A DNA stretch of 54,064 nucleotides from Acidobacteriota bacterium (lineage in GTDB: Bacteria > Acidobacteriota > Terriglobia > Versatilivoradales > Versatilivoraceae): contig JAJECY010000019.1 of NCBI GenBank assembly GCA_022821775.1, positions 1-54,064 of the forward strand, in the 5' to 3' direction. Position numbers and translations under genes: made by a program. The notes below the pieces were generated by a model. It made no database searches. It was given only the letters and a program-made list of their open reading frames with translations, and was not told where the DNA came from. Of this stretch, positions 17,763-46,933 are shown in pieces (the stretch's first letter is position 1; each line of letters opens with the position of its first letter).

Positions 17763-18638
17763 CTACCTGAGCAGGCGCCGCACGTAGGCGATGTCCTGGC
17801 GCAGGACATCGCGGGGGTCGGCTTCGCCCTGGTACTCGATGGACAGGCAGCCGTTGTAATGCAGGCGTTGAAGCTCAGCCAGCAGGGGCTTGAGATCCAC
17901 GACGCCTTCCCGCAGGGAGGTCCCCTGGAAGCGGCGTCCCCGGGTGGAGTCCAGGTAGCGGCCGGCTGGCTCTCCGGGTTTCAGCGGGCGGGCGTTCTTC
18001 AGATGAACATGGGCCAGGTAGGGCGCCATTGCGGCCATAGCCTGCCGAGGCGCTTCGTGAACGAATAGGGGTGCTGCAGTGTCAAAGATCAGGCGAAAGG
18101 CGGGGGAATCGATCTCTGCTGCGATGGCGGCGCATTCAGCCCCCGTTCCCATGAGGGGCTGAACCGGCGGATAGTCGATGTTTTCGGCCACCAGGGTGAT
18201 GCCGACGGATTGCGCATGGGCCGCACAGGCCGCCAGGCCCTCCACCAGCCAGGATCGCTGCTCGGCCAGCGGGACCCCCGGCTTGACGGTTCCCGGCACG
18301 ATCATGGCCAGCCGGGCGCCCATCTCGGCCGTCCTGTCGAGCAGCCTGAAGGTGCGTTCCGCCGCCTCCCGGCCATAGCCTGAGGGGACGATCAGGTCCG
18401 AATGGAAGATATAGCAGACCAGCGGCAGGCCGGCCTCGGCGGCCATCCTCTTGAGCTGCCGGGCCGAGTGGTCCTCCCAGTAGGGGTGCATGAGCTCCAG
18501 CCCGTCGGCGCCGAGTTCTCCGCAGGTCGAGACCACTTCCTCCAGGGTGAGGAAGCCGGCCCGGGTCCGGGGATTGAGATAGCCCTCCCGCAGGACCCAG
18601 TCGAAGTTGTAGTCGATCAGCAGAATGGAGGAGGACAT
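17763..18638 (-). CDS. TIM-barrel sugar isomerase/epimerase-like protein
   Basis: A 291-residue cytosolic TIM barrel of the xylose-isomerase-like family. Family marks include LGADGLELMHPYW early on, TLVAENIDYP in the middle, RLIFDTAAPL, AHVHLKNARP and LSIEYQG near the end, which contribute the Glu, Asp, His and Glu metal ligands of such isomerases. Relatives isomerise or epimerise ketoses, inososes and related polyols. It is the last gene of a five-gene minus-strand operon with two SDRs, another TIM barrel and an E1/lipoyl fusion; the gap to the upstream SDR is 45 bases. Confidence 0.87.
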   Translation of the reverse strand: MSSSILLIDYNFDWVLREGYLNPRTRAGFLTLEEVVSTCGELGADGLELMHPYWEDHSARQLKRMAAEAGLPLVCYIFHSDLIVPSGYGREAAERTFRLLDRTAEMGARLAMIVPGTVKPGVPLAEQRSWLVEGLAACAAHAQSVGITLVAENIDYPPVQPLMGTGAECAAIAAEIDSPAFRLIFDTAAPLFVHEAPRQAMAAMAPYLAHVHLKNARPLKPGEPAGRYLDSTRGRRFQGTSLREGVVDLKPLLAELQRLHYNGCLSIEYQGEADPRDVLRQDIAYVRRLLR

Positions 18639-18683: not shown

Positions 18684-19487
18684 TCAGCCCCGGCTCCGGT
18701 CTTCGGAGAAGTCGAAATCCGACATGTCGGGAGTGCAGCCCCGCAGCGTCCAGCCGCCGTCCACCGTCAGGATCTGGCCGGTGACATAGGCGGCTTCCTC
18801 GCTGGCCAGAAAGACGCATGGCCCCACGTAGTCCTCCGCCTGGCCGACTCTGCCGGCGGGGGTGACGGCGGCCCACTTGGGGTCGAAGTCGGGGTCGTAG
18901 GCGCGATTGCGGTCGTTGCTGGTGGCGGCCGGAGCTACGCAGTTGACCCGGACCTGCGGCGCCAGTTCCAGGGCCAGTTGCCGGGTCAGGGCTTCCAGGC
19001 CGGCCTTGGCCATGGTGTAGCTGGAATGGAAGGGGATGATCTGCCTGACGGCAATGGAACTGATGTTGATGATGGACCCGCCTCCTTCTTCCATCATCGC
19101 GCGGGCCGCGGCCATGGAGCCGAAGAAAGGACCTCTCAGGATGGTGGAGACCACGTCCTCGAAGTCCTCCTCGGTCACTTCGAAGAACGGGCCGAAGCGG
19201 GTGCGGGCGGCATTGTTGACGAGAACGTCCAGGCGGCCGAACCGCCGGCAGACGGCCTCCACCATGCCTTCGAAGGCCGTCCTGGAGCCGATGTCGGCCT
19301 GGAAGAGGTCAGCCTCTCCGCCGGCTTCCAACACCTGCCGGGCGGTCTGTTCGGCGCCCTCGGGGTCGGTCTTGAAGTTGACCGCCACCCGTGCCCCCTC
19401 GGCCCCCAGCCCGATGGCCAGGCCCTGTCCGATGCCCTTGCTGGCGCCCGTGATCAGGGCCACTTTACCGGCAAGTCTGCTTCCCAT
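18684..19487 (-). CDS. SDR-family NAD(P)-dependent dehydrogenase
   Basis: A 267-residue classical short-chain dehydrogenase. The cofactor motif TGASKGIG is at 13-20, NNAA at 91-94, catalytic Ser at 143-144, and the YxxxK pair is Tyr157/Lys161. VDGGW near the C-terminus is typical. A positively charged residue after the first strand (NFKTDPEG) hints at NADP use, but this is weak. Relatives oxidise sugars or keto acids. It is fourth in the five-gene operon, with 62 bases to the upstream gene. The C-terminal 20 residues are acidic and unusual. Confidence 0.92.
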   Translation of the reverse strand: MGSRLAGKVALITGASKGIGQGLAIGLGAEGARVAVNFKTDPEGAEQTARQVLEAGGEADLFQADIGSRTAFEGMVEAVCRRFGRLDVLVNNAARTRFGPFFEVTEEDFEDVVSTILRGPFFGSMAAARAMMEEGGGSIINISSIAVRQIIPFHSSYTMAKAGLEALTRQLALELAPQVRVNCVAPAATSNDRNRAYDPDFDPKWAAVTPAGRVGQAEDYVGPCVFLASEEAAYVTGQILTVDGGWTLRGCTPDMSDFDFSEDRSRG

Positions 19488-19549: not shown

Positions 19550-20407
19550 CTACAAGCCGACCCCGGCCTCCTCGGCCACCCGGCGGATGTATCCGGCGGC
19601 CTCCTCGTACTCCGGCTCGGTGGCCAGGTGCTCGATGATCAGGGGCGTTTCGGGAGACAGCCCTTGGATGCGGCGCAGGTAGGTGTCGTAGTCCAGCACG
19701 CCCCGTCCCGGCAGGACCTCCTGAATGGCCACCGTCCTGGAATCCAGGGCGTGGTGGATATCCTTGGCGTGACAGGAGCGGATCCAGGGCCCCAGCAGGT
19801 CGAAGCAGCGGTGGATGACCCGCCCGGTGGAGTAGAAGTCATGGGGGTCCCGGATGGCGTTGGCCGGGTCGAGGTGCACGGCCAGTCCCTGCCGATCCAC
19901 TGCCTTCAGAATCCTGAGGTACACCTCCGGTCCGTCCAACAGTGTCCAGGGAGACATCTCCAGCGTCAATCGGGTTCGGCGGGGCTTGACTTCGTCCAGG
20001 ACCTGCCTCACCCACTCGACCACCGCCTCGAAAGCCTCTTCCCCGAAGTTGTCAGGATGGTGGCCCACGTGGGCAAAGGGCGAGCCGCTGGGGTCGAAGG
20101 AGCCGACCACGGTGGCGCAGCAGACCGCCTCCAGCTCGTCGGCAATGGCCAGGGTCTCGGCGATTTTTCTCAGGTTTTCCTGCCGTTTCCCGTCGTCGGG
20201 ATCCAGCGGGTTCACCCAGGCGGCCACCTCGGCCACCACGATGTCGGCCGCGGCGAAGGTCCGCTTGATCTCGGCAAGCTCGTCCCGGGCGCCCGCGAAA
20301 GCTTCCGGCCAACTGACGGCCCGATACCCCTGCCCGCGGCACTCCTCCACGTAGTCCCGGGGGTCCTTGGACCGAAGGTAGTCCTCGATAGTGGCCCCGA
20401 GCCTCAT
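19550..20407 (-). CDS. TIM-barrel sugar isomerase/epimerase-like protein
   Basis: A 285-residue xylose-isomerase-like TIM barrel. Useful marks are TRLTLEMSPWTLL (metal Glu), LAVHLDPANAI (Asp), RSCHAKDIHH (His-Asp) and TPLIIEHLAT (Glu). It shares the fold with the product of 17763-18638 but the sequences differ clearly, so they may serve two steps or two epimers. It is third in the operon, 21 bases after the E1/lipoyl fusion, which suggests tight co-expression. No signal peptide. Confidence 0.87.
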   Translation of the reverse strand: MRLGATIEDYLRSKDPRDYVEECRGQGYRAVSWPEAFAGARDELAEIKRTFAAADIVVAEVAAWVNPLDPDDGKRQENLRKIAETLAIADELEAVCCATVVGSFDPSGSPFAHVGHHPDNFGEEAFEAVVEWVRQVLDEVKPRRTRLTLEMSPWTLLDGPEVYLRILKAVDRQGLAVHLDPANAIRDPHDFYSTGRVIHRCFDLLGPWIRSCHAKDIHHALDSRTVAIQEVLPGRGVLDYDTYLRRIQGLSPETPLIIEHLATEPEYEEAAGYIRRVAEEAGVGL

Positions 20408-20428: not shown

Positions 20429-22840
20429 TCAGGCTTGCGGTTTGAGGATGCCGAGCGGGTCCCCCAGGTTCACCACCGTGCCCTCGGGGGCGATCACCTG
20501 CGCCAGAACGCCGTCGGCCGGCGACTCGATCTCGGTGAGAGCCTTGTCGGTCTCCACCTCCACCACGGCCTGTCCGCTCGTCACCGCATCGCCCTTCTCC
20601 ACCAGCCAGCGCATGATGGTGGCCTTGGTGATGGTGAGGTCCTGGTGGGGCATGGTGATGGGGATGCCGCCTTCCACCAGGGGCGGTTCCGGTGCTTCCG
20701 GAGGTGTCCGCGAGGTGTCCGCAGGCGCCTCGGGGGGAGGCGGGCTGGGCATCGGTGGGGCTGTGGGGGTGGGTGCCGGCGGGGATTCCGCCTTGCGCTC
20801 CAGGCGTCTGGGCGCCGGCGCGACCCCGGCCAGGACGGACTCGGCGGCGGCGCGGATACGGTCTACAGTGAGGGAGATGGCCGCTTCCAGGGGCGGGCTG
20901 AAGGGATGGGCCACCGGCTCGGTATGGATGCGGCCCACCGGGGCATCCAACAGGTCGAAGCCGTGCTCCATGACAACGGCCGCGATCTCGCCTCCCAGCC
21001 CGCACATGGAGAAGGCTTCGTCCACTACCAGCAGGTGGTGGGTCTTGTCCAGGCTCCGGATCAGGGTGTCCACGTCCAGGGGAACGATGGTGCGCAGGTC
21101 GATCACCTCGCAACCGACCCCCCGGGACTCCAGTTGGCCGGCCGCCTCCAGGCAGCGATGCACCAGCGCCCCGCAGGTCGCCAGGGTCAGGTCGTTGCCC
21201 GGACGCACCACGGCCGCTTGACCGAAGGGGACCACCCATTCCCCATGCGGAACCTCGTCTTCACTGGAAAGCAGCACCTTGGGCTCCATGAGGATGACCG
21301 GGTCCCGGCTGCGCAGCGCGGCGGTGAACAGGCCCTTGGCATCGGCCGCGTTGGAGGGAACCGCCACCATCAGGCCGGGGCAGTGGGCCCAGATGGGGTA
21401 GTAGGCGCCGCTGTGGTGGGGGCCGGCGCTCTTGATCACTCCCATGGGGGCCCGAATCAGGAGCGGCACGCTGAACTGGCCATTGCTCATGTAGCGCAGC
21501 TTGGCCGCCTGTTGAATGATCTGGGAAGCCGCCTCGAACATGAAGTCGCTGAACATGAGGTCGCTGACGGCGCGGCAGCCCCGGGCCGCCGCCCCGAAGG
21601 CCGCCCCGGTAAAGCCCAGCTCGCAGATGGGGGTATCGATCATGCGATCGCCGCCGAACTCCTCCCACATCCCCTTGGTGTGGGCGAAGCTGCCGCCGCG
21701 CCGGCCGATGCCCTCGCCGAAGTAGATGAGGTTGGGGCTGCGCCTCATCTCGGAGGCGATAGCGTCCCGGGTAGCCTCCAGCCAGCCCTGTTTACGGGTT
21801 TCCGGTCGCGGCGATTGCCGCTCGGGCACCTCGATCACGGGACCCCAGACGGAATCGTGGACGCTGGATTCCGCCGGCAGCGGAGAATCCAGCGCGAACT
21901 GTTCGGCATCGTCGATCCTCGACTCGATCCGGGCCTCCAGGGCGTCCAGTTCGTCTCTGCCAGCCGTGCCGGTCCGGGTCAGTCTTCGGCCCAGCCGTAG
22001 AATCGGGCACTTCCGCTTCCACCGGTCGATCTCCTCCTGGGTCCGATAGGTGCCCGCCAGGGGTTCGCCCTCGTGATGACCCACCGTGCGATAGGTGCGG
22101 GCCTCGATCAGGGTGGGGCCCAGACCTTCCCGGGCCCGTTCCGCTGCCTTTTCCATGACCCGATGGACGGCCAGCACGTCGTTGCCGTCGACGCTTTCTC
22201 CTGGGATGCCGTAGGCGGCGGCGCGGCTGGCGATGCGGGTGTTGCGGGTAGAGGTGACCAGGGGTGTGCTGGTGGCGTAGAGATTGTTTTCGCAGACAAA
22301 GACCACCGGGGCCGACAGGGTGGCCGCCAGGTTGAGAGACTCGTGAAAGGCGCCATGGCTGACGGCTCCGTCTCCGAAGAAGGCCACCGCGATGCCGCCG
22401 CTGCCGCCTACTTTTTCGGCCAGCGCAGCTCCTACCGCGGCCGGAATGCCGGCGCCCACCAGGCCGTTGGTCCCCAGCAGGCCGGTCTCGGCGTCATAGA
22501 GGTGCATGCTGCCCCCGCGGCCGCCATTGCATCCCGTCGACCGTCCGGCCAGTTCGGCCAGCGCCTTTTGGGGCGACAGGCCCTTGGCCAGCGCGTGGCC
22601 GTGCCCGCGATGGGTGCTGGTGATGACGTCCTGCGGGCCCAGGTGGGCGCACACCCCGACGGCGGTGGCTTCCTCGCCCACGTAGAGATGAATGAAGCCG
22701 GGGATTTTCCCGTCCCGGTAGAGGCGCTGCACCCGCAGCTCGAACCGGCGGATCAACACCATCCGCTCGTAGAGCCGGAGCTGGGCGGCGGCATCCACCG
22801 CCGGGGCCGACCCGCGCTTGTGGTTTCCGGTTGGAGTCAT
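20429..22840 (-). CDS. 2-oxoacid dehydrogenase E1-alpha/E1-beta/lipoyl triple fusion
   Basis: An 803-residue fusion. E1-alpha (about 1-335) binds thiamine diphosphate through GDG (156-158) and Asn185/186. E1-beta (about 350-670) contains ICELGF with the cofactor-activating Glu407. A Pro/Ala/Glu linker (674-722) leads to a lipoyl domain (about 725-803) with the lipoylation Lys766 in VETDKALTEIE. Together these decarboxylate a 2-oxoacid and pass the acyl group to lipoate. No E2 acyltransferase core or E3 dihydrolipoyl dehydrogenase is encoded nearby. It overlaps the upstream SDR gene by 4 bases. The frame is continuous across all junctions, so the fusion is genuine. Pyruvate, acetoin or a sugar-derived 2-oxoacid are possible substrates. 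Confidence 0.92.
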   Translation of the reverse strand: MTPTGNHKRGSAPAVDAAAQLRLYERMVLIRRFELRVQRLYRDGKIPGFIHLYVGEEATAVGVCAHLGPQDVITSTHRGHGHALAKGLSPQKALAELAGRSTGCNGGRGGSMHLYDAETGLLGTNGLVGAGIPAAVGAALAEKVGGSGGIAVAFFGDGAVSHGAFHESLNLAATLSAPVVFVCENNLYATSTPLVTSTRNTRIASRAAAYGIPGESVDGNDVLAVHRVMEKAAERAREGLGPTLIEARTYRTVGHHEGEPLAGTYRTQEEIDRWKRKCPILRLGRRLTRTGTAGRDELDALEARIESRIDDAEQFALDSPLPAESSVHDSVWGPVIEVPERQSPRPETRKQGWLEATRDAIASEMRRSPNLIYFGEGIGRRGGSFAHTKGMWEEFGGDRMIDTPICELGFTGAAFGAAARGCRAVSDLMFSDFMFEAASQIIQQAAKLRYMSNGQFSVPLLIRAPMGVIKSAGPHHSGAYYPIWAHCPGLMVAVPSNAADAKGLFTAALRSRDPVILMEPKVLLSSEDEVPHGEWVVPFGQAAVVRPGNDLTLATCGALVHRCLEAAGQLESRGVGCEVIDLRTIVPLDVDTLIRSLDKTHHLLVVDEAFSMCGLGGEIAAVVMEHGFDLLDAPVGRIHTEPVAHPFSPPLEAAISLTVDRIRAAAESVLAGVAPAPRRLERKAESPPAPTPTAPPMPSPPPPEAPADTSRTPPEAPEPPLVEGGIPITMPHQDLTITKATIMRWLVEKGDAVTSGQAVVEVETDKALTEIESPADGVLAQVIAPEGTVVNLGDPLGILKPQA

Positions 22841-23631
22841 TGGGCCATGAACCCCCCGTCCACAAAGAGCACGTGCCCCGTTACCATGAGCGAGGCCTGC
22901 GAGATCAGAAACAGGCAGGGTCCCACCAGGTCGGCCGGTTCCGCCAGGCGTCCCGCCGGAATGCGCGACAGGATCTTCTCCAGCAGGGCGCCACGGTCTT
23001 CAAGCGCTGGGTTGTCCAGCACCGAATCCAGCATGGGGGTGCGCACCTGGCAGGGGGCGATGGCGTTGACGCGAACTCCGAAGGGCGCCCATTCCACCGC
23101 CAACTCCCTGACCAGGGCGTTGACGCCCGCCTTGGAGGCGGCGTAGGCCCCGGTGCCCCGCCCAAAGGCGGCTGAAGAGGCAATGCTGCTGAAATGCACC
23201 AGGCTGCCGCCGCGTCCCTGTTCCAGCAACACTCTCCCCACCGCCCGGGAAATCAGGAAGCTGCCGCCCAAACTGGTGTGAATGGACTGGTCGAACTGCT
23301 GCTGAGTCATGCGCACGATGGGGTTGAGCTGCTGGTTGACCGTCAGGTTGACGGCGAAGTCCAGGCTTCCCAGGTATTCCACCGCCTGCTCCACCGCCCG
23401 GTCCACTTCGTTCTCCCGATTGACGTCGCACCCCAACCCGATGGCCTGCCCTCCCATCTCCACGATTCTCTGGGCGCCCTCTTCTGCCGCCGCTTCCCGA
23501 AGGTCGCACAGGGCCAGTTCGGCGCCGCCACGGGCGATCCGGTCGCACAGCACCGCCCCGATGCCGCCGGCCGCCCCGAAGACAATGCCCTTGCGGCCAT
23601 CGATCGCAAATAGCGTTGACTTATCGCTCAT
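22837..23631 (-). CDS. SDR-family dehydrogenase, first gene of the operon
   Basis: A 264-residue short-chain dehydrogenase. The glycine motif reads GAAGGIG (19-25) instead of TGxxxGIG. The usual NNAG is NLTVN (95-99), an uncommon change in the adenine-pocket region. The catalytic set is intact: Ser148/149, Tyr163 and Lys167 (GAYAASKAG). An acidic residue ends strand 2 (LALCDLRE), favouring NAD. It starts the five-gene operon and overlaps the E1/lipoyl gene by 4 bases, so it probably makes or consumes the same pathway intermediate. Confidence 0.9.
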   Translation of the reverse strand: MSDKSTLFAIDGRKGIVFGAAGGIGAVLCDRIARGGAELALCDLREAAAEEGAQRIVEMGGQAIGLGCDVNRENEVDRAVEQAVEYLGSLDFAVNLTVNQQLNPIVRMTQQQFDQSIHTSLGGSFLISRAVGRVLLEQGRGGSLVHFSSIASSAAFGRGTGAYAASKAGVNALVRELAVEWAPFGVRVNAIAPCQVRTPMLDSVLDNPALEDRGALLEKILSRIPAGRLAEPADLVGPCLFLISQASLMVTGHVLFVDGGFMAQ

Positions 23632-23951: not shown

Positions 23952-25652
23952 TCAGGGCCGGCGGTAGCGGACCTCCACCTCCAGTTTTTCAATCAGAATG
24001 GATTCGGCTGTCCTCGGCCGGGGCCGGGTGAGGCGGAGGCCGACCAGGTTGGCGCCAACGGCAAACTGGTCGGGCGACAGCCGGTCGAACACCAGCCAGC
24101 CGCCGTCCGAGATCGGCTTGCCCAAGAGGGCGTTGTTCAAGCGGGCTTCAACCAGGTTCTCGATTCCCTTGGCTGGAGGGATGTTGAGCAGGCGGCTGTC
24201 GGGATGGCCGATGGTGGCCACAATAACTTCCTGGAGGCGCTTTTGCTCGGGCAGTCCCTTGGCCGAGGGGTCCGATAGCAGTACCCGTAGCGTAAGCCCT
24301 TCCAAATGCTCGCGCTCGGCGTCCACGTCGTCGGCGATGTTCACGGTCAAGAGAGCATCGGCCTTGCCGTCGTTGGCCAGGGGGGCCGGCAGCGGGGCCA
24401 GCATGTTGGTGTTGAAGTACATCCAGCGGGGCGTGGTCCAGTCCTGGGGGTTGGGGATGACCGTGGGACCGTGCCCGCCGCCGCGGCGCTGGGCCACGAA
24501 CCGCTTGTTCTTGCGGTGAAGGGTCTTGGGGCTGCCGATTTCCCGGTAGGCTTTGAGGTGGGTTTCCCAGACCCCGCGGAAGGGAAAATCGGGGGCGTGG
24601 TTGAAGTTGAAGGTCTGGATGCCGTCCGCACCCTGGCGCCACCAGTTGGCGGCAACGCCGCGATAGATGTCGATCGGTGGGGTGGCGTAGCCGTCGGAGG
24701 CGTGGTGGTCATCCACCGAGGGATAGAGCTTGACGTGGGTGCCGGCCACGATAGGGCGAAAGGCGGCGATGTCCACGTCGAAGTTGCGAATGCCCAGCGC
24801 CAGCACGTCCACCAGTCCTTCCCGGACCCAGGTCTCGATATCCAGGCCATCGAAGCGGCAGCCTTCCAGGTTCTCCGGAATTCGAGCCCCGACCAGCAGG
24901 GGCCGGCCGCGGCGCTGGGCCACTTGCTGGGTAATCGAGCGAAACTCCCGCATGAAGTCGTTCATCTTGTCCCGATTGGCCCAGGCCTTGCCCGGAGGCA
25001 GAACCGGGCACACCCTGGCAAAGTCCAGCGAGATACCGTCGTAGTCGAACCGCTCCGCAATTTCCCGCAGAATGCTCAGCTTGTAGCGGCGCACTTCGGG
25101 AATGGCGTAGTTCCACAGGCCGACCGGCCCGGGCCAGGTGTGGATCAGCCATTCCGGGTGCTTCAGCTTCATGGGGAGCTTGCTGAAAGGCCCCAGGTCG
25201 TTGTCGGAGCCGTTGATGCGGTAGTTGTAGAAGGCTTCGACGCCCCGTTTCCTCGACTCTTCGGCAAAGATGGCGGCGATGTCGATGCCCTGCTCCTTCC
25301 AGCGGCGGTAACCCTCGCTGTCATAGAGCGGCATGATCGAGCTCGGCCACGGTGACTGGTTGCCTTCCCCCCAACACCACCAGACGCTGTCGATCTGGAC
25401 GCCAGCGGCGTCGATGACGTGGAATTTCCACTTCACCAGTTCGGCCGGGTCGCGGCCCCCAAAATTGCGGTCGCCGGAGATGGTGTCGAAGTTGATGATG
25501 ATCCGGCGGTCCCGGCGGGCGGCGGCAAGGTGCTCGTCGGACAGTTGCACCGGTTTGGCGCCCGGGTCCCCACGCAGAGGGAGGTCCCCGGCGGGGTTCG
25601 GAAGGACCAGCATCATCGGAGCCAACAGCAAGAGCGTTCGAAGAAGTGACAT
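23952..25652 (-). CDS. Exported GH10-like (TIM-barrel) glycosyl hydrolase-like protein
   Basis: A 566-residue protein with signal peptide (MSLLRTLLLLAPMMLVLP). The start at 25652 is set by AGGAGG ten bases upstream; an ATG 21 bases earlier lies ahead of that site. Residues about 40-400 form a TIM barrel like that of the family-10-like GHL proteins: RIIINFDTISGD, then YDGISLDFARVCP with a possible catalytic acid, and GADGIQTFNFNHAP. A C-terminal beta domain follows. Its substrate is unknown. It is last in a three-gene unit with a Gfo/Idh oxidoreductase and an Nramp-like transporter, suggesting that it frees the imported sugar. Confidence 0.75.
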   Translation of the reverse strand: MSLLRTLLLLAPMMLVLPNPAGDLPLRGDPGAKPVQLSDEHLAAARRDRRIIINFDTISGDRNFGGRDPAELVKWKFHVIDAAGVQIDSVWWCWGEGNQSPWPSSIMPLYDSEGYRRWKEQGIDIAAIFAEESRKRGVEAFYNYRINGSDNDLGPFSKLPMKLKHPEWLIHTWPGPVGLWNYAIPEVRRYKLSILREIAERFDYDGISLDFARVCPVLPPGKAWANRDKMNDFMREFRSITQQVAQRRGRPLLVGARIPENLEGCRFDGLDIETWVREGLVDVLALGIRNFDVDIAAFRPIVAGTHVKLYPSVDDHHASDGYATPPIDIYRGVAANWWRQGADGIQTFNFNHAPDFPFRGVWETHLKAYREIGSPKTLHRKNKRFVAQRRGGGHGPTVIPNPQDWTTPRWMYFNTNMLAPLPAPLANDGKADALLTVNIADDVDAEREHLEGLTLRVLLSDPSAKGLPEQKRLQEVIVATIGHPDSRLLNIPPAKGIENLVEARLNNALLGKPISDGGWLVFDRLSPDQFAVGANLVGLRLTRPRPRTAESILIEKLEVEVRYRRP

Positions 25653-25716
25653 GAGGACGGTTCCTCCTAGCATGGAGCGGCGCCGATGGCGGCAGCATGA
25701 AGCGCCGGCCGTAGCC

Positions 25717-27681
25717 CTACAGATAGGTCCACACGATGACAGAGATGCCCAGGAAGAAGGCGCCGCAAATCAGCAGGCCCGCCTGCATGAACCAGGGCGG
25801 CCGGATCCGGGCCGGCAGCAGGGTGCGGTTGACGTAGAGGGTGTGCAGGGCCGTGGACCCCAGCGCCACGTTCCCCAGCACGGCGCCGATGATGGCCAAG
25901 GTGAGGGGCTCGAACAGGGAGAGCCAGACAACGCCCCAAACGGCGTAAATACCCAGGATGGAGTAGTAGATGTAGCGCACCTGGGGGCCGCGCAGGCGTT
26001 GAGCCCGCCGGCTGCTCGACCAGACCACGTCGGTCCAGCGGCGGGCTATGGCTTCTCCCGAGAAGATCTGCCCCGGAGCCAGAATCAGGAACCCGCACAG
26101 CAGGGTGGCGGGCCAGAGAAGCCACTGCAGATCGGGATACCTGCGGGCCGCGCCGTCGGCGATCATGGCGGCCACCCGGTGTCCCTCCACCGGCACGTTC
26201 CGAAGGAATTCCAGTGAGACCAGGCAGGGCAGGGCCATCCCCAGGAAGCAGCAGAACGTCCACACCACCAGTTGGTCTCGCCGGACGTAACGCATCCAGC
26301 CGCGCCAGCGCCCCAGGTTGGCCTCGTCGAGAGGAAAGGTCTTCCCGGCGTGCAGCAGCGTGACCGAACTGCCGCCCACGGCGCTGGGGATGGCCCCCAC
26401 CAGCTTGCCCATCCCCCAGCCCTTGTCGCGGGCATAGTTGGAACAGAGGGCGTTGCCGGTGCCTCCAATGCCGGCGATGGCGGCGAAGGCGGCCAGAATG
26501 GCCCAGTTGAGGTCGGGCAAGCCGCCGTGTTCCCACAGGTAGCCGAGGATGCCCACTCTCTCCACCCCCTGGTAGGCGAACAGCGACCGGGCCCGGCCGG
26601 CTACCGCGGCCGGAAGATCTTCCAGCCGATCAAGGGATTGTGCCTGCCCACCCTGTAAGACCTCGATCCGGTCCAACTTCCAGGTCTGATCGGCCAGGAC
26701 CTGTCCGGCCAGCCGCAGCCGGACACCATCCTCGGTGTCCTCCACGAAGAAGCGGTCCTCCCGGGAGAGCGAGGTGGCGCGGTCGACCAGGCCTTGACGC
26801 ACCTCCGCCAGATCGGCCGGCACGGCGGCATACATCCCGAATCGCTCCGGCTCGGGGCCGCGTGAGGCCGCGAACTCGGTAACCAGCGTCCCGCCGGGCT
26901 CGACGGTTCCCTTGACGGTGTAGCGGTGGCCGCCGCGGGACTCGCTCAACTCGAAATGGGGCCCCACGATGATGGTATCGGCCCGCAGCGGCAAGGCTCC
27001 GAACCTGAAAAAGCCGGTCACCACTTCCTGCAGGCTGGCATAGGAGACGGTGAAGGCGGACAGGATGCAGAGGAAACCGAGCACCAGGATGACCTTGAGG
27101 GACATCAGGCGCTCAATGCTGCGGTAGATGGTGCCGCCGAATATCAGGGGGAGAAAGGCCAGCAGGAAAACGGCATAGCCGAGCACCTTGACCAACCGCA
27201 CCTCGGAGAGGGAGATTCCCAGCAACTGCACGGTCCCGTCACCCGGCAGATGGCCCAGCAGAGCCGCGGCCAGCGGCACCGCGGCCGTGGCCGCCATGAA
27301 GGGCCAGATATTGCTGACATCCATCAGCAGGTACCAGGCCGTCCAGACTCTCGGTCCCGGCCGGGTCCGCAGAAATCCCACGTAGACCGGCTCGCCGCAG
27401 TAGAGGGCGTAGCGCATCACCTCCAGGTTGACGACGAGCTGACAGAGGATGCTGATGGTGGCCAGCCAGAGGATGGTGCCGCCGTACTGGCTGGCGACGG
27501 CCGGACCGAAGAGCCACTCCCCGGCGCCGATGGCCACCCCGGCCATCATCATGCCGGGACCGATCAAGGCCACCCAGCTACGCATGCCCATTGCCGGCGG
27601 GGCGGGCATGTCGGCCGTGGTCCAGTCCGGAAGATTTCCCGAGGCCACGGTGGCGCTTCCTGCAGAAGGGGTATCGTTCAT
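25717..27681 (-). CDS. Nramp-fold membrane transporter without metal motif, with large insertion
   Basis: A 654-residue protein of about eleven membrane segments. GPGMMMAGVAIGAGEW (41-56) aligns with the first helix of Nramp transporters, but the metal motif DPGN is replaced by GAGE. The helix-6 region reads AAIAGIGGTGNALCS, without the MPH-type signature. A hydrophilic block of about 150 residues (232-390) sits between helices and is rich in beta and charged residues. Classical Nramp proteins import Mn or Fe with protons; loss of the ligands argues for another substrate. It lies between a Gfo/Idh oxidoreductase (34-base gap) and a GH10-like hydrolase, so a sugar or sugar acid is my guess. 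Confidence 0.8.
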   Translation of the reverse strand: MNDTPSAGSATVASGNLPDWTTADMPAPPAMGMRSWVALIGPGMMMAGVAIGAGEWLFGPAVASQYGGTILWLATISILCQLVVNLEVMRYALYCGEPVYVGFLRTRPGPRVWTAWYLLMDVSNIWPFMAATAAVPLAAALLGHLPGDGTVQLLGISLSEVRLVKVLGYAVFLLAFLPLIFGGTIYRSIERLMSLKVILVLGFLCILSAFTVSYASLQEVVTGFFRFGALPLRADTIIVGPHFELSESRGGHRYTVKGTVEPGGTLVTEFAASRGPEPERFGMYAAVPADLAEVRQGLVDRATSLSREDRFFVEDTEDGVRLRLAGQVLADQTWKLDRIEVLQGGQAQSLDRLEDLPAAVAGRARSLFAYQGVERVGILGYLWEHGGLPDLNWAILAAFAAIAGIGGTGNALCSNYARDKGWGMGKLVGAIPSAVGGSSVTLLHAGKTFPLDEANLGRWRGWMRYVRRDQLVVWTFCCFLGMALPCLVSLEFLRNVPVEGHRVAAMIADGAARRYPDLQWLLWPATLLCGFLILAPGQIFSGEAIARRWTDVVWSSSRRAQRLRGPQVRYIYYSILGIYAVWGVVWLSLFEPLTLAIIGAVLGNVALGSTALHTLYVNRTLLPARIRPPWFMQAGLLICGAFFLGISVIVWTYL

Positions 27682-27715: not shown

Positions 27716-28741
27716 TCAGCCCAGGGCAACCGGTCTTCCCGTGCGGGCCGACTGGTAAAGCGCCAGTACGCTGCGCAGAAAGGCGCGGCTGAGATCCAGT
27801 GAAACCACCGGGGCGGCGCCCTCCAGGATACAGGCTTCCATGGCCTTGACTTCGGCCTCGTAGGAGTCCACCGCCGGAATTCGGATCACCTCCCTGCTTC
27901 GGTCGGTGGCGGTGAAGGTCAAGCGTCCTTCCTTGGGGGGACTCCCCGGCCAATCCGCTCCCGACAGGTGATCCATGACGGTCAGCATTCCCCGGGTGCC
28001 GATGATCTCGGCCCCGCGGCGAGGGGCCGACTGCATGCCGCAGGAGATCTGGGCCACCATGCTGTTGGCAAACCGCATCTGGGCAATCAAGGTGAGATCC
28101 ACCCCCGTGGGCCCGACCGATTGCTGAGCCCAGACCTCGCTGGGGGGTGTCCCGCCCGCCAGGGCGATGGCGAAGGCGTTGGGGTAGACGCCCACGTCCC
28201 ACAATCCACCGCCGGCCAGTTCCGGTTGCAGGCGGATGTTGCCGCGGTCTTCCGGGGGCAGACAGAAGGCGTCCCAGCAGGTCACCAGTTCTACCTGCCC
28301 CAAGCGCCCCTCGGCCATAATCCGCTGGATGGTCCGGATCTGGGGATGATGGAGAAAGGAGAAGGCCTCGAAGATCGTCACCCCGTATTGCCGGGCAGCG
28401 GCTTCGACCGCTTGCAGTTCCTCCAGGTTGGTCACCAGGGGCTTTTCGCACATGACATGCTTGCCCGCCCGGGCGGCGCGAATCGTCCAGTCGGCGTGCA
28501 GGGTGTTGGGCAGAGGGTTGTAGACGGCATCGATCTCCGGGTCCTCGATCAGTTCCTGGTAGCTGCCGTAGGCCCGGGGGATGTGGTTCTCCGCGGCGTA
28601 GGCCTCGGCCTTTGCCAGGCCGCGGCTGGCCACGGCCGCCAGGTGGCTGCGGGGAGAGCGCTGCATGGGGCCCACCATGGCGACGTTGATCCAGGCTGTC
28701 GACAGCAGACCCCAGCGGACTTTGTCGGTGGCGAGCGCCAT
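27716..28741 (-). CDS. Gfo/Idh/MocA-family oxidoreductase
   Basis: A 341-residue NAD(P)-dependent enzyme. The Rossmann domain begins KVRWGLLSTAWI, and the family motif CEKP includes Glu99-Lys100-Pro101. The C-terminal domain has GGGLWDVGVYP, matching the GGGxxxDxGxY pattern that contributes the catalytic residues. Members oxidise sugars, inositols or glycosides, often at C3 or C1. It is first in a three-gene minus operon and divergent from the DUF1080 gene across 241 bases. DUF1080 proteins act on 3-keto-sugars made by some Gfo/Idh enzymes, so the two could work together. Confidence 0.92.
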   Translation of the reverse strand: MALATDKVRWGLLSTAWINVAMVGPMQRSPRSHLAAVASRGLAKAEAYAAENHIPRAYGSYQELIEDPEIDAVYNPLPNTLHADWTIRAARAGKHVMCEKPLVTNLEELQAVEAAARQYGVTIFEAFSFLHHPQIRTIQRIMAEGRLGQVELVTCWDAFCLPPEDRGNIRLQPELAGGGLWDVGVYPNAFAIALAGGTPPSEVWAQQSVGPTGVDLTLIAQMRFANSMVAQISCGMQSAPRRGAEIIGTRGMLTVMDHLSGADWPGSPPKEGRLTFTATDRSREVIRIPAVDSYEAEVKAMEACILEGAAPVVSLDLSRAFLRSVLALYQSARTGRPVALG

Positions 28742-28982: not shown

Positions 28983-30068
28983 GTGACCAACTCTCGGCAA
29001 ATCCGCCTCGTCCTCGTTCTGATGTCCTTGAGCTGGCTGCAGCTCGCCCCGGGCTTCGGCCAATCCCGTTCGGCCTCGGAGTGGCTGGCCCATGACCCCG
29101 AACGGCCCCGGCCGCCGGTGGTGTCTCCGGCGCCGCAGTCGCTGCCGGTGGCTCCTCCCGAGGACGCCGTGGTGCTCTTCGACGGGACCGGTATGGCGGG
29201 ATGGAGAAGCGAGGAGGGAGGGCCGGCGCCATGGAAAGTGCAGGACGGCGCCATGATTTCGGTTCCCGAAAGCGGCTACTTGTATACCTCCCGGGCCTTC
29301 GGCGACGTACAGCTTCACGTGGAATGGGCGGCCCCCCTTCCGGTGGAGGGCAGCAGTCAGGGGCGCGGCAACAGCGGCGTCTACCTGATGTCCAAGTACG
29401 AAGTCCAGGTTCTCGACTCCTACCGCAACGACACCTATCCCGACGGGCAGGCGGGGGCCGTCTATGGGCAGTACCCGCCCCTGGTGAACGCCAGCCTTCC
29501 CCCGGGAGAGTGGCAGACCTACGACATCGTCTTTCGCCGCCCCCGCTTTCACAGGGACGGACGGCTGGCCTCGCCGGCCCGGATGACGGTGATTCACAAT
29601 GGAATCCTGGTGCAGGACAACGTGGAGCTGTGGGGACCCACCGGCTGGCTGCAGCATGCGCCCTACACCTACCACCCCGACAGGCTGCCGCTTGCCCTGC
29701 AGGACCACGGCAACCCGGTCCGGTTCCGCAATATCTGGCTCAGGGAACTGCCCGAGCATGCCGAGCCCGGTCCGGTCCGAAAGCCCGCCCCGCCCGCCAT
29801 CTCTCTGGCGCCGGCAGTGTTGCAGCGCTATGCCGGCCGCTACCGGACCCCGGATGGAAACGAGTACGTAATCTCCCTGCACGGGGACCACCTGAGGGCG
29901 TTCTTTTACCGGCAACCGGAGATCGAGCTGGTGCCCCGCTCGGAACGGGAGTTCGCCCTGCGCTGGACGGCGGCCCGCCTGCTGTTCGACCTGGATGGGG
30001 AAGGCCGTCCCACCGGATTCATCTTCGAGATCGGGGGCGACCGGCGTCCGGTCAAGCGGGTTGACTGA
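28983..30068 (+). CDS. Exported DUF1080 (3-keto-disaccharide hydrolase-like) protein
   Basis: A 361-residue exported protein with a GTG start backed by GGGAGGAG eight bases upstream. The signal peptide ends near LAPGFGQS. The DUF1080 concanavalin-like domain spans about 60-255, with DAVVLFDGTGMAGW at its start, GNSGVYLMSKYEVQVLDSY in the centre and VRFRNIWLREL at its end. A C-terminal beta domain (about 275-361) follows. Some members hydrolyse 3-keto-glycosides. TATGAT at 28924-28929 could be a -10 box, but no good -35 is found. The stop lies 7 bases from the convergent recQ stop. Confidence 0.88.
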   Translation: MTNSRQIRLVLVLMSLSWLQLAPGFGQSRSASEWLAHDPERPRPPVVSPAPQSLPVAPPEDAVVLFDGTGMAGWRSEEGGPAPWKVQDGAMISVPESGYLYTSRAFGDVQLHVEWAAPLPVEGSSQGRGNSGVYLMSKYEVQVLDSYRNDTYPDGQAGAVYGQYPPLVNASLPPGEWQTYDIVFRRPRFHRDGRLASPARMTVIHNGILVQDNVELWGPTGWLQHAPYTYHPDRLPLALQDHGNPVRFRNIWLRELPEHAEPGPVRKPAPPAISLAPAVLQRYAGRYRTPDGNEYVISLHGDHLRAFFYRQPEIELVPRSEREFALRWTAARLLFDLDGEGRPTGFIFEIGGDRRPVKRVD

Positions 30069-33208: not shown

Positions 33209-34714
33209 TCAGACCAGGATTTCCTTCATCACCCGGCCGCCCAGGTCGGTGAGGCGCTTGAAGCGTCCGGCGTGGTAGTAGGTGAGTTGCATGTCATCAA
33301 GCCCCATGCAGTGCAGCATGGTGGCATGCAGGTCGTGCAGGTGGTAGACGTTTTCAGCGGCGTTGATGCCCAGTTCGTCGGTGGCCCCAACCACCGTGCC
33401 GCCCTTGATGCCGGCCCCGGCGAACCACATGATCATGGCGTCCTTGTTGTGGTCGCGGCCCGGGTTGGACCGGAAGAAGTCCATGGAGTTGTCGGCGGTG
33501 CGGCCGAATTCTCCGCCCCAGACCACCAGGGTTTCGTCCAGCAGGCCCCGCTGCTTGAGGTCCTTGAGGAGACCGGCCACCGGCTGGTCGGTTTCCAGGC
33601 CCCGCTTGCGGTGCTCCAGGGCGATATTCTCGTGGGAGTCCCAGCCTTCGCAGTAGATCTGGACGAAGCGCACCCCCCGTTCCACCAGGCGGCGGGCCAT
33701 CAGGCACTTGCGGGCCATGTGCTCCGACATGGCGTGGTTGAGCCCGTAAAGCTCCTTGATGTCCTCCGGCTCCTTGTCGATGTCCAGGGCCTCGGGCACC
33801 GCGAACTGCATCCGGAAGGCCAGCTCGTAGTTCCGCATGCGCCCCAGCAGGTCGCTGTTGGAGGGATGGGCTCCCAACAACTTCCGGTTGAGCCGGTTGA
33901 GCAGGCCGATGCTGGCCTCCTGCCGCTGCGGGGTCACTCCTTTCGGGGGTTGCAGGTCCACGATCGGGACCCCCTCGGAGCTCAACAGGGTACCCTGGCA
34001 CACGGCCGGCAGGTAGCCGTTGGAGTAGTTGACGGCTCCTCCCTCGATCCCCCGCCGCTTGTCGGGCAAGACCACGAAGGCCGGCAGGTTCTGGTTCTCG
34101 GTGCCCAGTCCGTAGACCGCCCAGGAGCCCAGGGAGGGGCTGCCCGGAATGGGGAGTCCGGTGTTCATCAGGAAGCTGCCCACCGGGTGGCTGCTGGAAT
34201 CGGTGTGGAGGGACCTGACCACGGCCATGTCGTCGACGCAGGTGGACAGATGGGGGAAGATCTCGGAGACTTCGATGCCGGACTTGCCGTGCCTGGCGAA
34301 TTTGAAGGGACTCCCAACGTAGATCCGCTTTTCCAGGCTGCCGTAAATGCGGGTCACCGGGGTGCCGTGGTAGCGGTCCAGGGCCGGCTTGGGGTCGAAG
34401 GTGTCCATCTGGCTGGGAGCGCCGAACATGAAGAGAAAGATGCAGGACTTGGCCTTGCCCGGCAGGTGGGGTGGCTTGGGGGCCAGTGGATTATCGGCGG
34501 TGCTGGGGGCGGCCAGCAGGCCGTCCTGGTAGAGCATGGAAGAGAGCGCCACCGATCCCAGCCCCTTGCCGATGCGGTAGACGAACTCCCGCCGCCCCAG
34601 GCCCGGGTCGTTTGCCGACGGCACGGGCTCGACGTCGCTGCAGAGCTGCACCCCGTTCTTTCGCAGGAGCAGTTGGCCCTTGCCGGCTCTTGCGGGTTGC
34701 CTGTCGTGTTTCAT
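33209..34714 (-). CDS. DUF1501 exported protein (sulfatase-like fold)
   Basis: A 501-residue DUF1501 protein. A Tat-like motif, GRREFVYRIGKGLG, lies near residue 40, so export in folded form is likely although the start is long. CIFLFMFGAPSQMDTFDPKP is the hallmark opening of the domain, with VVWGGEFGRTADNS and GRDHNKDAMIMWFAGAGIKGG further on; these resemble alkaline-phosphatase-superfamily metal sites. Function is unknown. It is almost always encoded next to a cytochrome/DUF1549/DUF1553 protein, as here, 16 bases downstream of it. Confidence 0.92.
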   Translation of the reverse strand: MKHDRQPARAGKGQLLLRKNGVQLCSDVEPVPSANDPGLGRREFVYRIGKGLGSVALSSMLYQDGLLAAPSTADNPLAPKPPHLPGKAKSCIFLFMFGAPSQMDTFDPKPALDRYHGTPVTRIYGSLEKRIYVGSPFKFARHGKSGIEVSEIFPHLSTCVDDMAVVRSLHTDSSSHPVGSFLMNTGLPIPGSPSLGSWAVYGLGTENQNLPAFVVLPDKRRGIEGGAVNYSNGYLPAVCQGTLLSSEGVPIVDLQPPKGVTPQRQEASIGLLNRLNRKLLGAHPSNSDLLGRMRNYELAFRMQFAVPEALDIDKEPEDIKELYGLNHAMSEHMARKCLMARRLVERGVRFVQIYCEGWDSHENIALEHRKRGLETDQPVAGLLKDLKQRGLLDETLVVWGGEFGRTADNSMDFFRSNPGRDHNKDAMIMWFAGAGIKGGTVVGATDELGINAAENVYHLHDLHATMLHCMGLDDMQLTYYHAGRFKRLTDLGGRVMKEILV

Positions 34715-34730
34715 GGTTTCCGAACGCCTC

Positions 34731-37355
34731 TTATTCCAGGTAGATGAATTCGTTCATGTTCAGCAGCACCAGGCAGAGCTCCTGCAGGTTCCCCTGCTGT
34801 CCCTCCAGTGAGGAGGCCCCCCCGGAGGAGTCGGCCAGCGCCGCCGGCGTCAGGGAAAGCCGGCGCGGCGCCGGCCGCAGGAATGCCAGGCAATCGGCCG
34901 CTTCAGAAGAATCGGGGTCGCGCTGCAAGGCCAACTGGAAAGCTCGCTTAACCTGCAGGGCCACGTCCTCGCCCACCTCTTTCCGAATGCGGGCCGCCAT
35001 GGCCTGAGCCTGCTGGTGGGCGAAGGTTCCATTGAACAGGGAGAAGACCTGGCTGGTGACGGTGGTGACGTTTCTGACGGCGCACCGCTCGGAGGTGTTG
35101 GGTCCGTCGAAGACGGTCATCATCGGGAGCTGGAAGGACCGCATCTGCAGCATGTAGAGGCTGCGCCGGTTCCTGTCTTCCTGGGGAGAGGGCTCCCACC
35201 AGGTGCGAGAACGCTTCTGCCACTCGTCCTCGGCCGCCGGGAGAAAGGGCGGACCACCCATCACCGGATTCAGATTGCCGCTTACCGAAAGCAGGCTGTC
35301 GCGGATGACCTCTGCCTGGGCCCGAATGGGACTGCGCTTCCAGAGCAGCCGGTTGGAGGAATCGATCTCCTCGAACGCCGTGTTTTCGGGATTTTCCACC
35401 GACTGGCGATAGACGCTGGAGTGCAGGATGAGGCGGTGCATCTCCTTGACGCTCCAGCCCCCGTCCACGAACTGCCAGGCGAGCCAGTCGAGCAGGTCCT
35501 GATGGAGGGTGCCGCTGCCGTTCCTGCCGAAATCGCTGGCCGTCCTCACCAGGCCCTCTCCGAAATGGTGCTGCCAGATGCGGTTGACCATGACCCGGGC
35601 CGTCAGGGGATTGTCTCCACTGGCGATCCACTCCGCCAGCAGCTTGCGGCGGCTCTGGCCCAGCCCGTCCATGTTGGCGGGCTTGGAATGGCCGGTGATC
35701 GTGCTCAGGAACCCCGGCTTGACCTCCTCGCCCCTCAGCTTGAGGTTGCCTCCCTTCAGAACATAGGTGGCCACCGCTCTTCGCAGGGGCGCGTCGGAGG
35801 TGAGGTAGGCCATGGCCTTGTAATAGTCGGGGCTGCTCGGATTGGCGAAGCGGGCGGTCTGGCGTGTAATCAGAGCCAGCCGATCCTTCTCCTCCCGGGT
35901 GTAGAAGTCCCCCTTGGCGAATGGCATCCGCTTGAGATCGGGAATCACCCAATCCTTGAGGTCCTGAGGACTCATGAGAATGTAGTGGGGCGCTTCCCGT
36001 TCCTTCAGCCCGGCCCTGAAGGCCGCGGCGGCCTCCTTGCGGTCGGAAAGCACCCGGTCCCAGGCCTCGGATTTTTGTTTCCACCACTTTGGTTGCTGGA
36101 CAGGAGTTTCGTACTGGGTGAACTTCAGGGGCTTGGCGCTGAATGTCAGCGGCGCGAAGAAGGCTTCCAGCCGGTAGTAATCCCGGGTGGGAATGGGGTC
36201 GTACTTGTGGTCGTGGCAGCGGGCGCACCCCAGCGTGATCCCCAGGAAGGTTTCTCCGGTGGTATCCAGCACATCGATCAGGACATCCCGCCGGCCTTCC
36301 TCGGCGCTGCGTTCCACCCGCACTCCCAAGGTCAGGAAGGAGGCCCCTATCTTCCCCTCGTCTCCATAGGCCCGGAAGGCATCGCCCGCCAGTTGCTCTT
36401 TGATGAAGCGGTCGTAGGGGCGGTCCTGGTTGAAGGCCCGGACCACGTAGTCCCGGTAGCGCCACATGTGGGGCCGCGGATATTCCAGCCCGCCGCCACG
36501 GGTGTCGGCATAGCGCACCAGGTCCAGCCAGTGCCGTCCCCAGCGCTCGCCGTAGCGGGAGTCGGCCAGCAGCCGCTCGACAGCCCGGGAGTAGGCCTCG
36601 GGCGACGAATCCTCCAGGAAGCGGACCATGTCCTCGGGAGTGGGAGGCAGCCCGATCAATCCGAAATAGAGCCGCCGCAGCAAGGCGCGGCGAGACGCGG
36701 GGGGCGCCGGCCGCAATTCCTTTTTCTCCAGTCGGGCCAGGATGAAGGCGTCGATGGGGTTGGCCACCCAGTCCTGCTGCTTGACTTGCGGGACTTCCGG
36801 CTCCTTGAGCTCGGTCCAGGGCCAACCGGGCTTGTCCTCCTGCTTGCCCCCGGCCTCTTCAGTGACCGGCATCCCGTCGATCCAGCGGGCAATGAGATCG
36901 ATCTCCTCCGCCGACAGGGCATCGCCGCCCAATGGCATGGACGGCTGCCGCTTCCCACTAAGGCGAAGCATCAGCGGGCTGGCGGCGCTGTTGCCGGCTA
37001 TGACGGCCGGTCCGTCCAGAGCGCCTCCCTTCAGCAGCGAGTCCACGGTTTCGAGGACCAGGCCGCTACGGTGGGACTGCGAACTGTGGCAACTGCCGCA
37101 GTTGCTCTCCAGGATGGGACGGATGTCCTGCTCGAAGCCGGGAGCGGCATCGGTCGGGCTGGAGGCACCCAGGCTGGTTCCATTCAGTGCCAGGCTGAAC
37201 AGTCCCAGGCCGATCCAGGTCAGGACAGACCCCGGCCGGCGGCGGCATGGCAGACCGAACCAACGCAGACAGGCCGAGGCTCGAAGTGTTGGTGCGCTGG
37301 GATCCACTCCGATACCCCCCTTTGGGCTGACTTTGGGACCACTGCAATGTGTCAT
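34731..37355 (-). CDS. Planctomycete-type cytochrome c / DUF1549 / DUF1553 protein
   Basis: An 874-residue exported protein. An N-terminal leader (about 42-64) precedes a cytochrome domain with heme motif CGSCH (86-90). DUF1549 follows with LRRLYFGLIGLPPTPED and a second CARCHDHKYDP motif, and DUF1553 forms the C-terminal half with NPLTARVMVNRIWQHHFGEG. A GTG at 37307 preceded by a G-run is an attractive alternative start, since a consensus-like TTGACA at 37369-37374 would then act as a -35 box. The protein is probably a periplasmic heme enzyme of unknown reaction working with the DUF1501 product. Confidence 0.92.
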   Translation of the reverse strand: MTHCSGPKVSPKGGIGVDPSAPTLRASACLRWFGLPCRRRPGSVLTWIGLGLFSLALNGTSLGASSPTDAAPGFEQDIRPILESNCGSCHSSQSHRSGLVLETVDSLLKGGALDGPAVIAGNSAASPLMLRLSGKRQPSMPLGGDALSAEEIDLIARWIDGMPVTEEAGGKQEDKPGWPWTELKEPEVPQVKQQDWVANPIDAFILARLEKKELRPAPPASRRALLRRLYFGLIGLPPTPEDMVRFLEDSSPEAYSRAVERLLADSRYGERWGRHWLDLVRYADTRGGGLEYPRPHMWRYRDYVVRAFNQDRPYDRFIKEQLAGDAFRAYGDEGKIGASFLTLGVRVERSAEEGRRDVLIDVLDTTGETFLGITLGCARCHDHKYDPIPTRDYYRLEAFFAPLTFSAKPLKFTQYETPVQQPKWWKQKSEAWDRVLSDRKEAAAAFRAGLKEREAPHYILMSPQDLKDWVIPDLKRMPFAKGDFYTREEKDRLALITRQTARFANPSSPDYYKAMAYLTSDAPLRRAVATYVLKGGNLKLRGEEVKPGFLSTITGHSKPANMDGLGQSRRKLLAEWIASGDNPLTARVMVNRIWQHHFGEGLVRTASDFGRNGSGTLHQDLLDWLAWQFVDGGWSVKEMHRLILHSSVYRQSVENPENTAFEEIDSSNRLLWKRSPIRAQAEVIRDSLLSVSGNLNPVMGGPPFLPAAEDEWQKRSRTWWEPSPQEDRNRRSLYMLQMRSFQLPMMTVFDGPNTSERCAVRNVTTVTSQVFSLFNGTFAHQQAQAMAARIRKEVGEDVALQVKRAFQLALQRDPDSSEAADCLAFLRPAPRRLSLTPAALADSSGGASSLEGQQGNLQELCLVLLNMNEFIYLE

Positions 37356-45475: not shown

Positions 45476-46780
45476 CTATTTCATCATCTCCGCCGCCGAC
45501 CTGACCGACTCCACCGCGCCCCACAGGGCCAGAACGAACAGAAATCCCATGAGAAGGTTTTCCCACCAGCGGTTGCAATAGCGCGGGCCGATCAGGCGGG
45601 AGCTGGCCGTGATCCACCAGAGGCCGCCGGCCAAGGCCGGGATAAGCACCACCATCAGGGTATTGACCAGCAGCGTCAGCCTGACGAAGTCGGCCCGGTC
45701 GGTGAAGATCCAGACCAGCGGCGAGACCAGGGTCCAGACCGCCACCCAGCGGTAGACGGGATGGAGGCGGTGGTCGGAAGGAGCGCCTCCCGCGCCCCGC
45801 CAGCGCCGGTAGGCGTGGCTGGCCAGGCACCCCAGCCCCAGGCCGCAGCCGAGCAGCGAGGTGTAGACGGCTCCGAACAGGCCCAGGAAGAACAGCAGCC
45901 GCCCGCCGTCGCCCAGCACGAGGCCCAGAAGCTCGGTCAGGTCGTCCAGATCCCCGATCCTCCCGCCGCCGGCGTGCACCAACTCGGCCCCCAGGGTCCA
46001 GACCGCCAGGTTGAACAGGATCATGGCGCCGATGGCCAGCATGAAGTCGTAGGTCTGCACCCGACGGTAGGCCGGTCCCCGCCAGCCCTTCTGTTCCAGA
46101 AAGTAGGGGTAGACCAGGTTCATCAGCGAGCCCCCGACCGCGCCTACCATGGCCATGGCCACCACCATGGCGCCAAAGGGACCCTGCCTGTCCGGAAGCT
46201 GGAGTGTCAGGACACCCTTCAGGATGCCTTCCAGGTTGGGTCCGACCCAGATGGCGGTGCCGAGCAGCGAAACCGTCATCAGGACCATGAATCCCTTGAA
46301 CACCCACTCGACGCGGGTGTACACCGGCCGGAAAATGAGGATCAGCCCGAGGACGATCCAAACCAGCGCCCACTGCCACCGGCGGCCGGCCCCGGTCAGC
46401 TCCACCATGATCTCCCCGACGCCGGCCACCATGTAGGTGCCGTTGACGTGGGCCACGATCACGGCCACCACCAGCAGAAAGGGGGCGTACCAGCGGTGCA
46501 GACGCACCAGGCCGTCCAGCACCCCTTCTCCGTGAGGATTGCAGAGCTGATACTTGGCGATGGTGGTGACGAAGAAAAAACGCATCAGGAGGGCAAACAC
46601 CATGGCCCACATGAGCGCGTAGCCGTAGTTGCCCCCGGAAATGCCGGCCGAGAGGATGTCGCCGGAACCCAGCCATGTCAGAACGACCACGAAACCCGGA
46701 CCGAAGGACTTCACGTACTCGGCAAAGGAGCGGGGAATCGGAGCCGGTGGCGTGGGCTCATCGAGCCTGGAGGTGGCCAT
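45476..46780 (-). CDS. Nramp-fold membrane transporter without metal motif
   Basis: A 434-residue protein with about eleven membrane segments. The first helix reads FGPGFVVVLTWLGSGDI (27-42 region), where Nramp metal transporters have GPGxxx...DPGN. Asp41 is kept but the DPGN motif is not. The helix-6 region, MVGAVGGSLMNLVYP, also lacks the methionine signature. The start at 46780 is preferred because AAGGGA precedes it and the protein then begins with a short Pro-rich tail. It is unlike the 654-residue paralogue in having no insertion. Neighbours are a sialidase upstream and a PhyH/aldolase/symporter run downstream. Confidence 0.82.
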   Translation of the reverse strand: MATSRLDEPTPPAPIPRSFAEYVKSFGPGFVVVLTWLGSGDILSAGISGGNYGYALMWAMVFALLMRFFFVTTIAKYQLCNPHGEGVLDGLVRLHRWYAPFLLVVAVIVAHVNGTYMVAGVGEIMVELTGAGRRWQWALVWIVLGLILIFRPVYTRVEWVFKGFMVLMTVSLLGTAIWVGPNLEGILKGVLTLQLPDRQGPFGAMVVAMAMVGAVGGSLMNLVYPYFLEQKGWRGPAYRRVQTYDFMLAIGAMILFNLAVWTLGAELVHAGGGRIGDLDDLTELLGLVLGDGGRLLFFLGLFGAVYTSLLGCGLGLGCLASHAYRRWRGAGGAPSDHRLHPVYRWVAVWTLVSPLVWIFTDRADFVRLTLLVNTLMVVLIPALAGGLWWITASSRLIGPRYCNRWWENLLMGFLFVLALWGAVESVRSAAEMMK

Positions 46781-46933
46781 GGTGGGAACCGTCCCTTCTC
46801 CCTGCTGAGACAGGACACGAGTTGCGGCTGACGGAATCAAGGTCGGCTATGGCTCCGGGGCGGGACCGTGAAACGGCCATGGCCGGCCTGGGCACGTCGG
46901 TCCGTTCGAAAGGGACGGGCATCCGGACGGTGT

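Follow-up and report, generated by a model that had tools for sequence, protein, structure and literature searches.

An Nramp-related carrier with an inserted soluble domain and without the DPGN motif in a catabolic operon of an acidobacterium

Introduction

What does a carrier with the Nramp fold transport when the metal motifs of that family are missing? The question is raised by a gene in the window—the whole stretch of 54,064 nucleotides of an Acidobacteriota contig that was analyzed here—which a preliminary description read as an Nramp-fold carrier that had lost DPGN, acquired a large soluble insertion, and plausibly changed from metals to an organic solute. In the SLC11 family, canonical members are recognized by DxxN with A/CxxM, NRAT proteins by DxxN-AxxT and NRMT proteins by DxxG-TxxA/T, and the TM1 Asp has been termed universally conserved (PMC8806188). 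A 2026 study has described “Nramp-related” proteins, including groups that it calls G-motif, which in its passages on them are paraphyletic to canonical Nramps and mostly uncharacterized (PMC12873925). The published record on G-motif relatives is contradictory: PxpT is reported to be required for use of 5-oxoproline (PMC13274462), and MntG/YcsG to import Mn2+ (PMC10448178). The literature that we searched describes no function, transport or binding for the subgroup to which the present carrier belongs.

Results

The features of the locus are collected in Table 1. The open reading frame is real, the coordinates first given for it are right, and it is conserved in five congeneric genomes (92–97% identity), with homologues in marine Planctomycetaceae that are 52–56% identical over nearly the full length of the carrier, insert included. 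Genes of this Nramp-like kind number about 13 per genome in these bacteria.

Table 1. Features of the carrier gene and its surroundings (positions in the window)
Feature	Position	Strand	Description and basis
3-Keto-disaccharide hydrolase (PF06439)	28983..30068	+	Divergent; Pfam search
GFO/IDH/MocA oxidoreductase	27716..28741	-	Directly upstream of carrier; Pfam search
Nramp-related carrier	25717..27681	-	654 aa, ~11 TM helices; NF037982 match, AF2 model
TM1 GAGE, residues 52-55	27517..27528	-	Aligned to canonical DPGN; G54 and E55 invariant (43/43)
Inserted alpha/beta domain (predicted), residues ~232-388	26518..26988	-	TM5-TM6 loop; AF2 models, alignment, tree
TM6 G407-T-G-N410	26452..26463	-	Aligned to canonical AxxM; G407 43/43, N410 42/43
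GHL10 glycosyl-hydrolase-like protein	23952..25673	-	N-terminal signal-like stretch; Pfam search
Short-chain dehydrogenase	22837..23631	-	Pfam search
Fused TPP-dependent E1 alpha/beta and lipoyl domain	20429..22840	-	Pfam search
AP_endonuc_2 (xylose-isomerase-like TIM barrel)	19550..20407	-	Pfam search
Short-chain dehydrogenase	18684..19487	-	Pfam search
AP_endonuc_2 (xylose-isomerase-like TIM barrel)	17763..18638	-	Pfam search

The carrier proved to be a member of the superfamily. The NCBIfam model NF037982 (Nramp family) matches it at 132.9 bits, above the cut-off, in two stretches with the insertion between them; a Pfam-A profile search with the protein gave no match at E<=1. An AlphaFold2 model of the whole carrier (mean pLDDT 89.7, pTM 0.90), compared with the PDB using Foldseek, retrieved EleNRMT as its best match and EcoDMT, BfraNramp and DraNramp as the other leading ones, with target-normalised TM-scores of 0.55–0.76 for this group. 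KCC and further APC-fold structures were also among the matches, which is expected because Nramp belongs to the same fold superfamily, and a YcsG model came at rank 19. We then drew on a family alignment (A1) of 43 members, in which core spacing is constant throughout, insert-free members included, and the loops of variable length (TM3-4, TM5-6 and TM7-8) are the predicted external ones. Its profile aligns with that of DPGN-type Nramps over 384 collinear columns that take in all TM helices (hhalign probability 86.8%, E 4.3e-6), and the connection is stronger when made in two steps through intermediates encoded in the same genome (A1 to the L065-type, 99.5%; L065-type to canonical, 97.2%). The Pfam profile PF01566 matches none of the 43 members at E<=1; it does match the own-genome intermediates and canonical-like paralogs. 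Because NF037982, hhalign and the AlphaFold/Foldseek comparison agree, profiles and model together place the carrier as an Nramp relative in the broad sense of the superfamily, despite the absence of a PF01566 match. The APC amino-acid transporters AdiC, CadB, PotE and GadC share the LeuT/APC fold and a glycine-rich TM1 (GSGxF/GSGI in AdiC and PotE) but have no profile similarity to the carrier family (hhalign probability 0.5%), and membership of the carrier in that family was ruled out.

Both site motifs of canonical SLC11 proteins are replaced. In TM1 the carrier reads IGAGEW, in which GAGE aligns with DPGN of E. coli MntH; across A1, the position of the canonical Asp is Gly in 41 of 43 members and Ala in the other two, and that of the canonical Asn is Glu in every member and is followed by a conserved aromatic residue (W/F56). 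TM6 lacks MPH/AxxM, as had been noticed from the sequence: no Met stands at the aligned position, which is Asn in 42/43. The resulting GxxE-GxxN signature fits neither the canonical nor the NRAT nor the NRMT pattern, and GSGE is likewise seen in TM1 of remoter relatives, some of them plasmid-borne and some encoded in the same genome. Judged from the alignment, G-E in place of DPGN is thus an old trait of the whole family, and the word “lost” in the preliminary description, right about the motif now found there, is wrong about its history. Since DPGN is absent family-wide and Nramp-related proteins are described as paraphyletic to canonical Nramps in the passages of PMC12873925 that treat them, the published rooting implies that DPGN was probably never present in this lineage.

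The insertion is real as well, and was sized correctly. The anchors G223 and G404 are 181 residues apart in the carrier and 24–31 apart in insert-free relatives, which gives an insert of ~156 residues between TM5 and TM6 (~150 had been estimated). It is confidently modelled within the full-length protein (pLDDT ~93) and, alone, yields repeated beta strands plus helix at pLDDT 82 and pTM 0.74. Given a cytoplasmic N-terminus, which other Nramps have, the TM5-6 loop and with it the insert would lie on the periplasmic side; the net positive charge of the short TM2-3 and TM8-9 loops is consistent with these being on the cytoplasmic side. In a tree computed with the insert columns removed, the eight rows that have the insert, from Acidobacteriota and marine Planctomycetota, all fall into one clade (support 100/99), with one change in every bootstrap tree; on this phylogeny, the TM5-TM6 alpha/beta insert arose once. 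No known domain was recognized in it: a sequence search of the PDB gave no match better than E 0.29, and Foldseek none at E<=0.001, the highest TM-score being about 0.3 with p32. Its two-fold layout of strands plus helix has no more than a loose likeness to PUR/p32. That the insert might be mobile or occur by itself was also considered and rejected: across 10 whole genomes the insert was found solely within these carriers, and it had no plasmid match.

Judged from the sequence, the carrier is the second gene of a tight eight-gene minus-strand operon in the order MocA, carrier, GHL10, short-chain dehydrogenase (SDR), E1-lipoyl, TIM barrel, SDR and TIM barrel. Its neighbors, 34 bp upstream and 43 bp downstream, are the sugar oxidoreductase and the glycosidase-like gene of the preliminary description; intergenic gaps are mostly <70 bp, with one of ~320 bp, and the gene order is preserved in congeners. 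A GHL10 orthologue (L019:4527-6281) begins, by eye, with a lipobox-like LSGC sequence.

Related genes, in other phyla too, can have similar catabolic surroundings. In the planctomycete locus L027, the genes that come after a carrier from a different subclade are SDR, E1, E2 and MocA; L171 adjoins E1; Ldh_2 adjoins L029, L031 (both from Poribacteria) and L032; a 2-hydroxyacid dehydrogenase lies beside L070 and L147, and MocA beside L140 and L162. In the same genome, a close paralog lies directly downstream of two SSF symporters, and further paralogs adjoin LarA, RraA and TIM-barrel genes. Among further relatives, two on a Rubrobacter plasmid (L080:593-2014 and L080:5947-7413), both annotated as divalent metal transporters, are near UxaA, LutABC, a four-carbon acid sugar kinase, PdxA and a lactate-racemase-domain gene, and haloarchaeal ones are near an L-lactate permease. 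Other members, for example L149, L161 and L164, have unrelated genes alongside, and no pxp genes are among the identified neighbors of the carrier and its relatives. Two relatives on haloarchaeal plasmids (L188:580-1803 and L189:586-1803), with GPGT in TM1, lie directly upstream of hydantoinase/oxoprolinase genes, an adjacency that is a further hint of an organic substrate.

In family searches on one closed congeneric genome with 13 Nramp-like loci, 6 loci had a MocA, SSF or TIM-barrel gene no more than 5 kb away (2.05 expected, p 0.009), the same test with ABC ATPases as a control giving 1 against 0.99 expected. Only SSF and this pooled set are enriched, MocA alone being found at 1/13 loci in that genome (p 0.56), and the enrichment is modest and in part reflects the mutual clustering of catabolic genes. 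Homologues of MntR, DtxR, Fur or ZiaR were absent from all 75 family loci, and no metal riboswitch was found within the window. Among five plasmid genes of the DPGN type, the adjacent regulator is annotated as MntR in two cases, as a “metal-dependent transcriptional regulator” in a third and as ZiaR in a fourth; the fifth gene has no such neighbor.

Discussion

The carrier belongs to the large and little-studied Nramp-related branch that has already been described. It matches the G-motif groups by textual description, in having an Nramp core with neither DPGN nor MPH; the passages that describe these groups mention neither an inserted soluble domain nor a catabolic setting (PMC12873925). From canonical MntH/Nramp (SLC11) it differs in both motifs while sharing the fold. 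EleNRMT, a Mg2+ transporter, likewise does without the canonical Met and Asn but retains the Asp (PMC8806188). PxpT and YcsG (MntG) are, by description, Nramp-family carriers encoded beside enzymes for an organic substrate, 5-oxoproline, and a metal-only role is not proven for them; PxpT of C. glutamicum differs in having 436 aa and no reported insert.

We think it probable that the protein is a secondary carrier that imports an organic solute on an Nramp fold, with a periplasmic accessory domain. An organic substrate is favored because of the catabolic neighbors, the ~13 paralogs per genome and the absence of metal regulators, and PxpT offers a precedent (PMC13274462). For this operon the solute is most likely a sugar, a keto-sugar or polyol, or a sugar or hydroxy acid. 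The glycine-rich unwound segments of TM1 and TM6 would provide a wider substrate site, in which E55, with N410 and W/F56, may form hydrogen bonds to the solute or serve H+/Na+ coupling, and the inserted domain may aid substrate capture or contact with a partner in the periplasm. An exported GHL10 or the 3-keto-disaccharide hydrolase would free a unit outside the cell, which the carrier would take in; MocA and the SDRs could then oxidize it, the TIM-barrel proteins isomerize the product, and the E1 complex cleave this to acyl-CoA. The suggested change from metals to an organic solute therefore survives as far as the solute is concerned; a change within this gene is unsupported, the absence of DPGN being family-wide and Nramp-related proteins being described as paraphyletic where PMC12873925 discusses them.

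Several points speak against an organic solute: the record on G-motif relatives conflicts, the enrichment is modest, several members have unrelated neighbors, and E55 places a carboxylate at the site to which a cation might bind. Were the site rebuilt from E55 and N410, the protein might carry a divalent cation (Mg2+ or Mn2+) and supply cofactor to the nearby TPP- and metal-dependent enzymes. The two residues, one invariant and the other nearly so, do sit on both ligand helices, EleNRMT moves hydrated Mg2+ without Met and Asn (PMC8806188), MntG/YcsG is a reported Mn2+ importer (PMC10448178), and NCBIfam names the family a divalent metal transporter. Nevertheless, the TM1 Asp that is universal in SLC11 (PMC8806188) is missing, neither a metal regulator nor a riboswitch lies nearby, and one cofactor hardly explains ~13 paralogs with differing catabolic neighbors, so we consider a metal carrier unlikely. 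A compromise in which a metal–hydroxy-acid or metal–sugar-acid complex is carried, the metal held on the E55 side and its ligand in the widened site, would reconcile PxpT (5-oxoproline) with MntG (Mn2+) and suit the hydroxy-acid enzymes that adjoin related G-motif carriers; we give it still less credence, as the operon of this copy looks directed at sugars or polyols and not at chelates. A role as sensor or transceptor and not as transporter, with a solute detected by the external domain, is brought to mind by the conserved external domain of single origin and by the SSF transporter directly upstream of a close paralog. This seems very improbable, since there is no signalling domain and the spacing of the TM core and the site residues are constant in all 43 members, including those that have no insert.

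If these proteins carry organic solutes, the Nramp fold would serve two kinds of substrate and many metal-transport annotations are wrong. NF037982, an equivalog model entitled “Nramp family divalent metal transporter,” scores carriers free of the metal motifs above its cut-off and is the sole NCBIfam model matching these proteins; therefore, automatic annotation names them metal transporters. The dispute over Mn2+ or 5-oxoproline for YcsG/PxpT also becomes testable on a larger set with clear operons.

Inserts on external loops would add a new element to the architecture of the Nramp fold, and other members have ones that differ from that described here. A paralog from the same genome (L070:8735-10618, contig C187) has D-x-D-G-D-G repeats on its external TM5-TM6 loop, which on the tree correspond to three changes, possibly including losses. 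These repeats, which Pfam does not recognize, resemble calcium-binding loops, and similar ones occur in the planctomycete members L122, L123, L130 and L138. In L104 (703-1293) and L154, ~150 residues of helical repeats are placed between TM3 and TM4; comparison of the L104 insert with the TM5-TM6 insert of the carrier gave no homology. A truncated family copy at a contig end (L074:3-1037) has such TM3-TM4 helical repeats as well. It is conceivable, and we offer it tentatively, that the Nramp-related proteins with G-x-G-E form a broad family that carries carbon sources on the Nramp fold and is paralogous to the metal Nramps. Soluble domains unrelated to one another would then have been gained time and again on the external loops of these proteins, as periplasmic modules for substrate capture or partner docking.

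Elsewhere in the window, a second Nramp relative (45476-46840, minus strand) matches PF01566 and has GSGD in TM1; an HpcH aldolase is two genes away from it and an SSF symporter three genes away. Two adjacent large genes at 33209-37355, also on the minus strand, look by eye like a DUF1501/DUF1553 pair, which is common in Planctomycetota.
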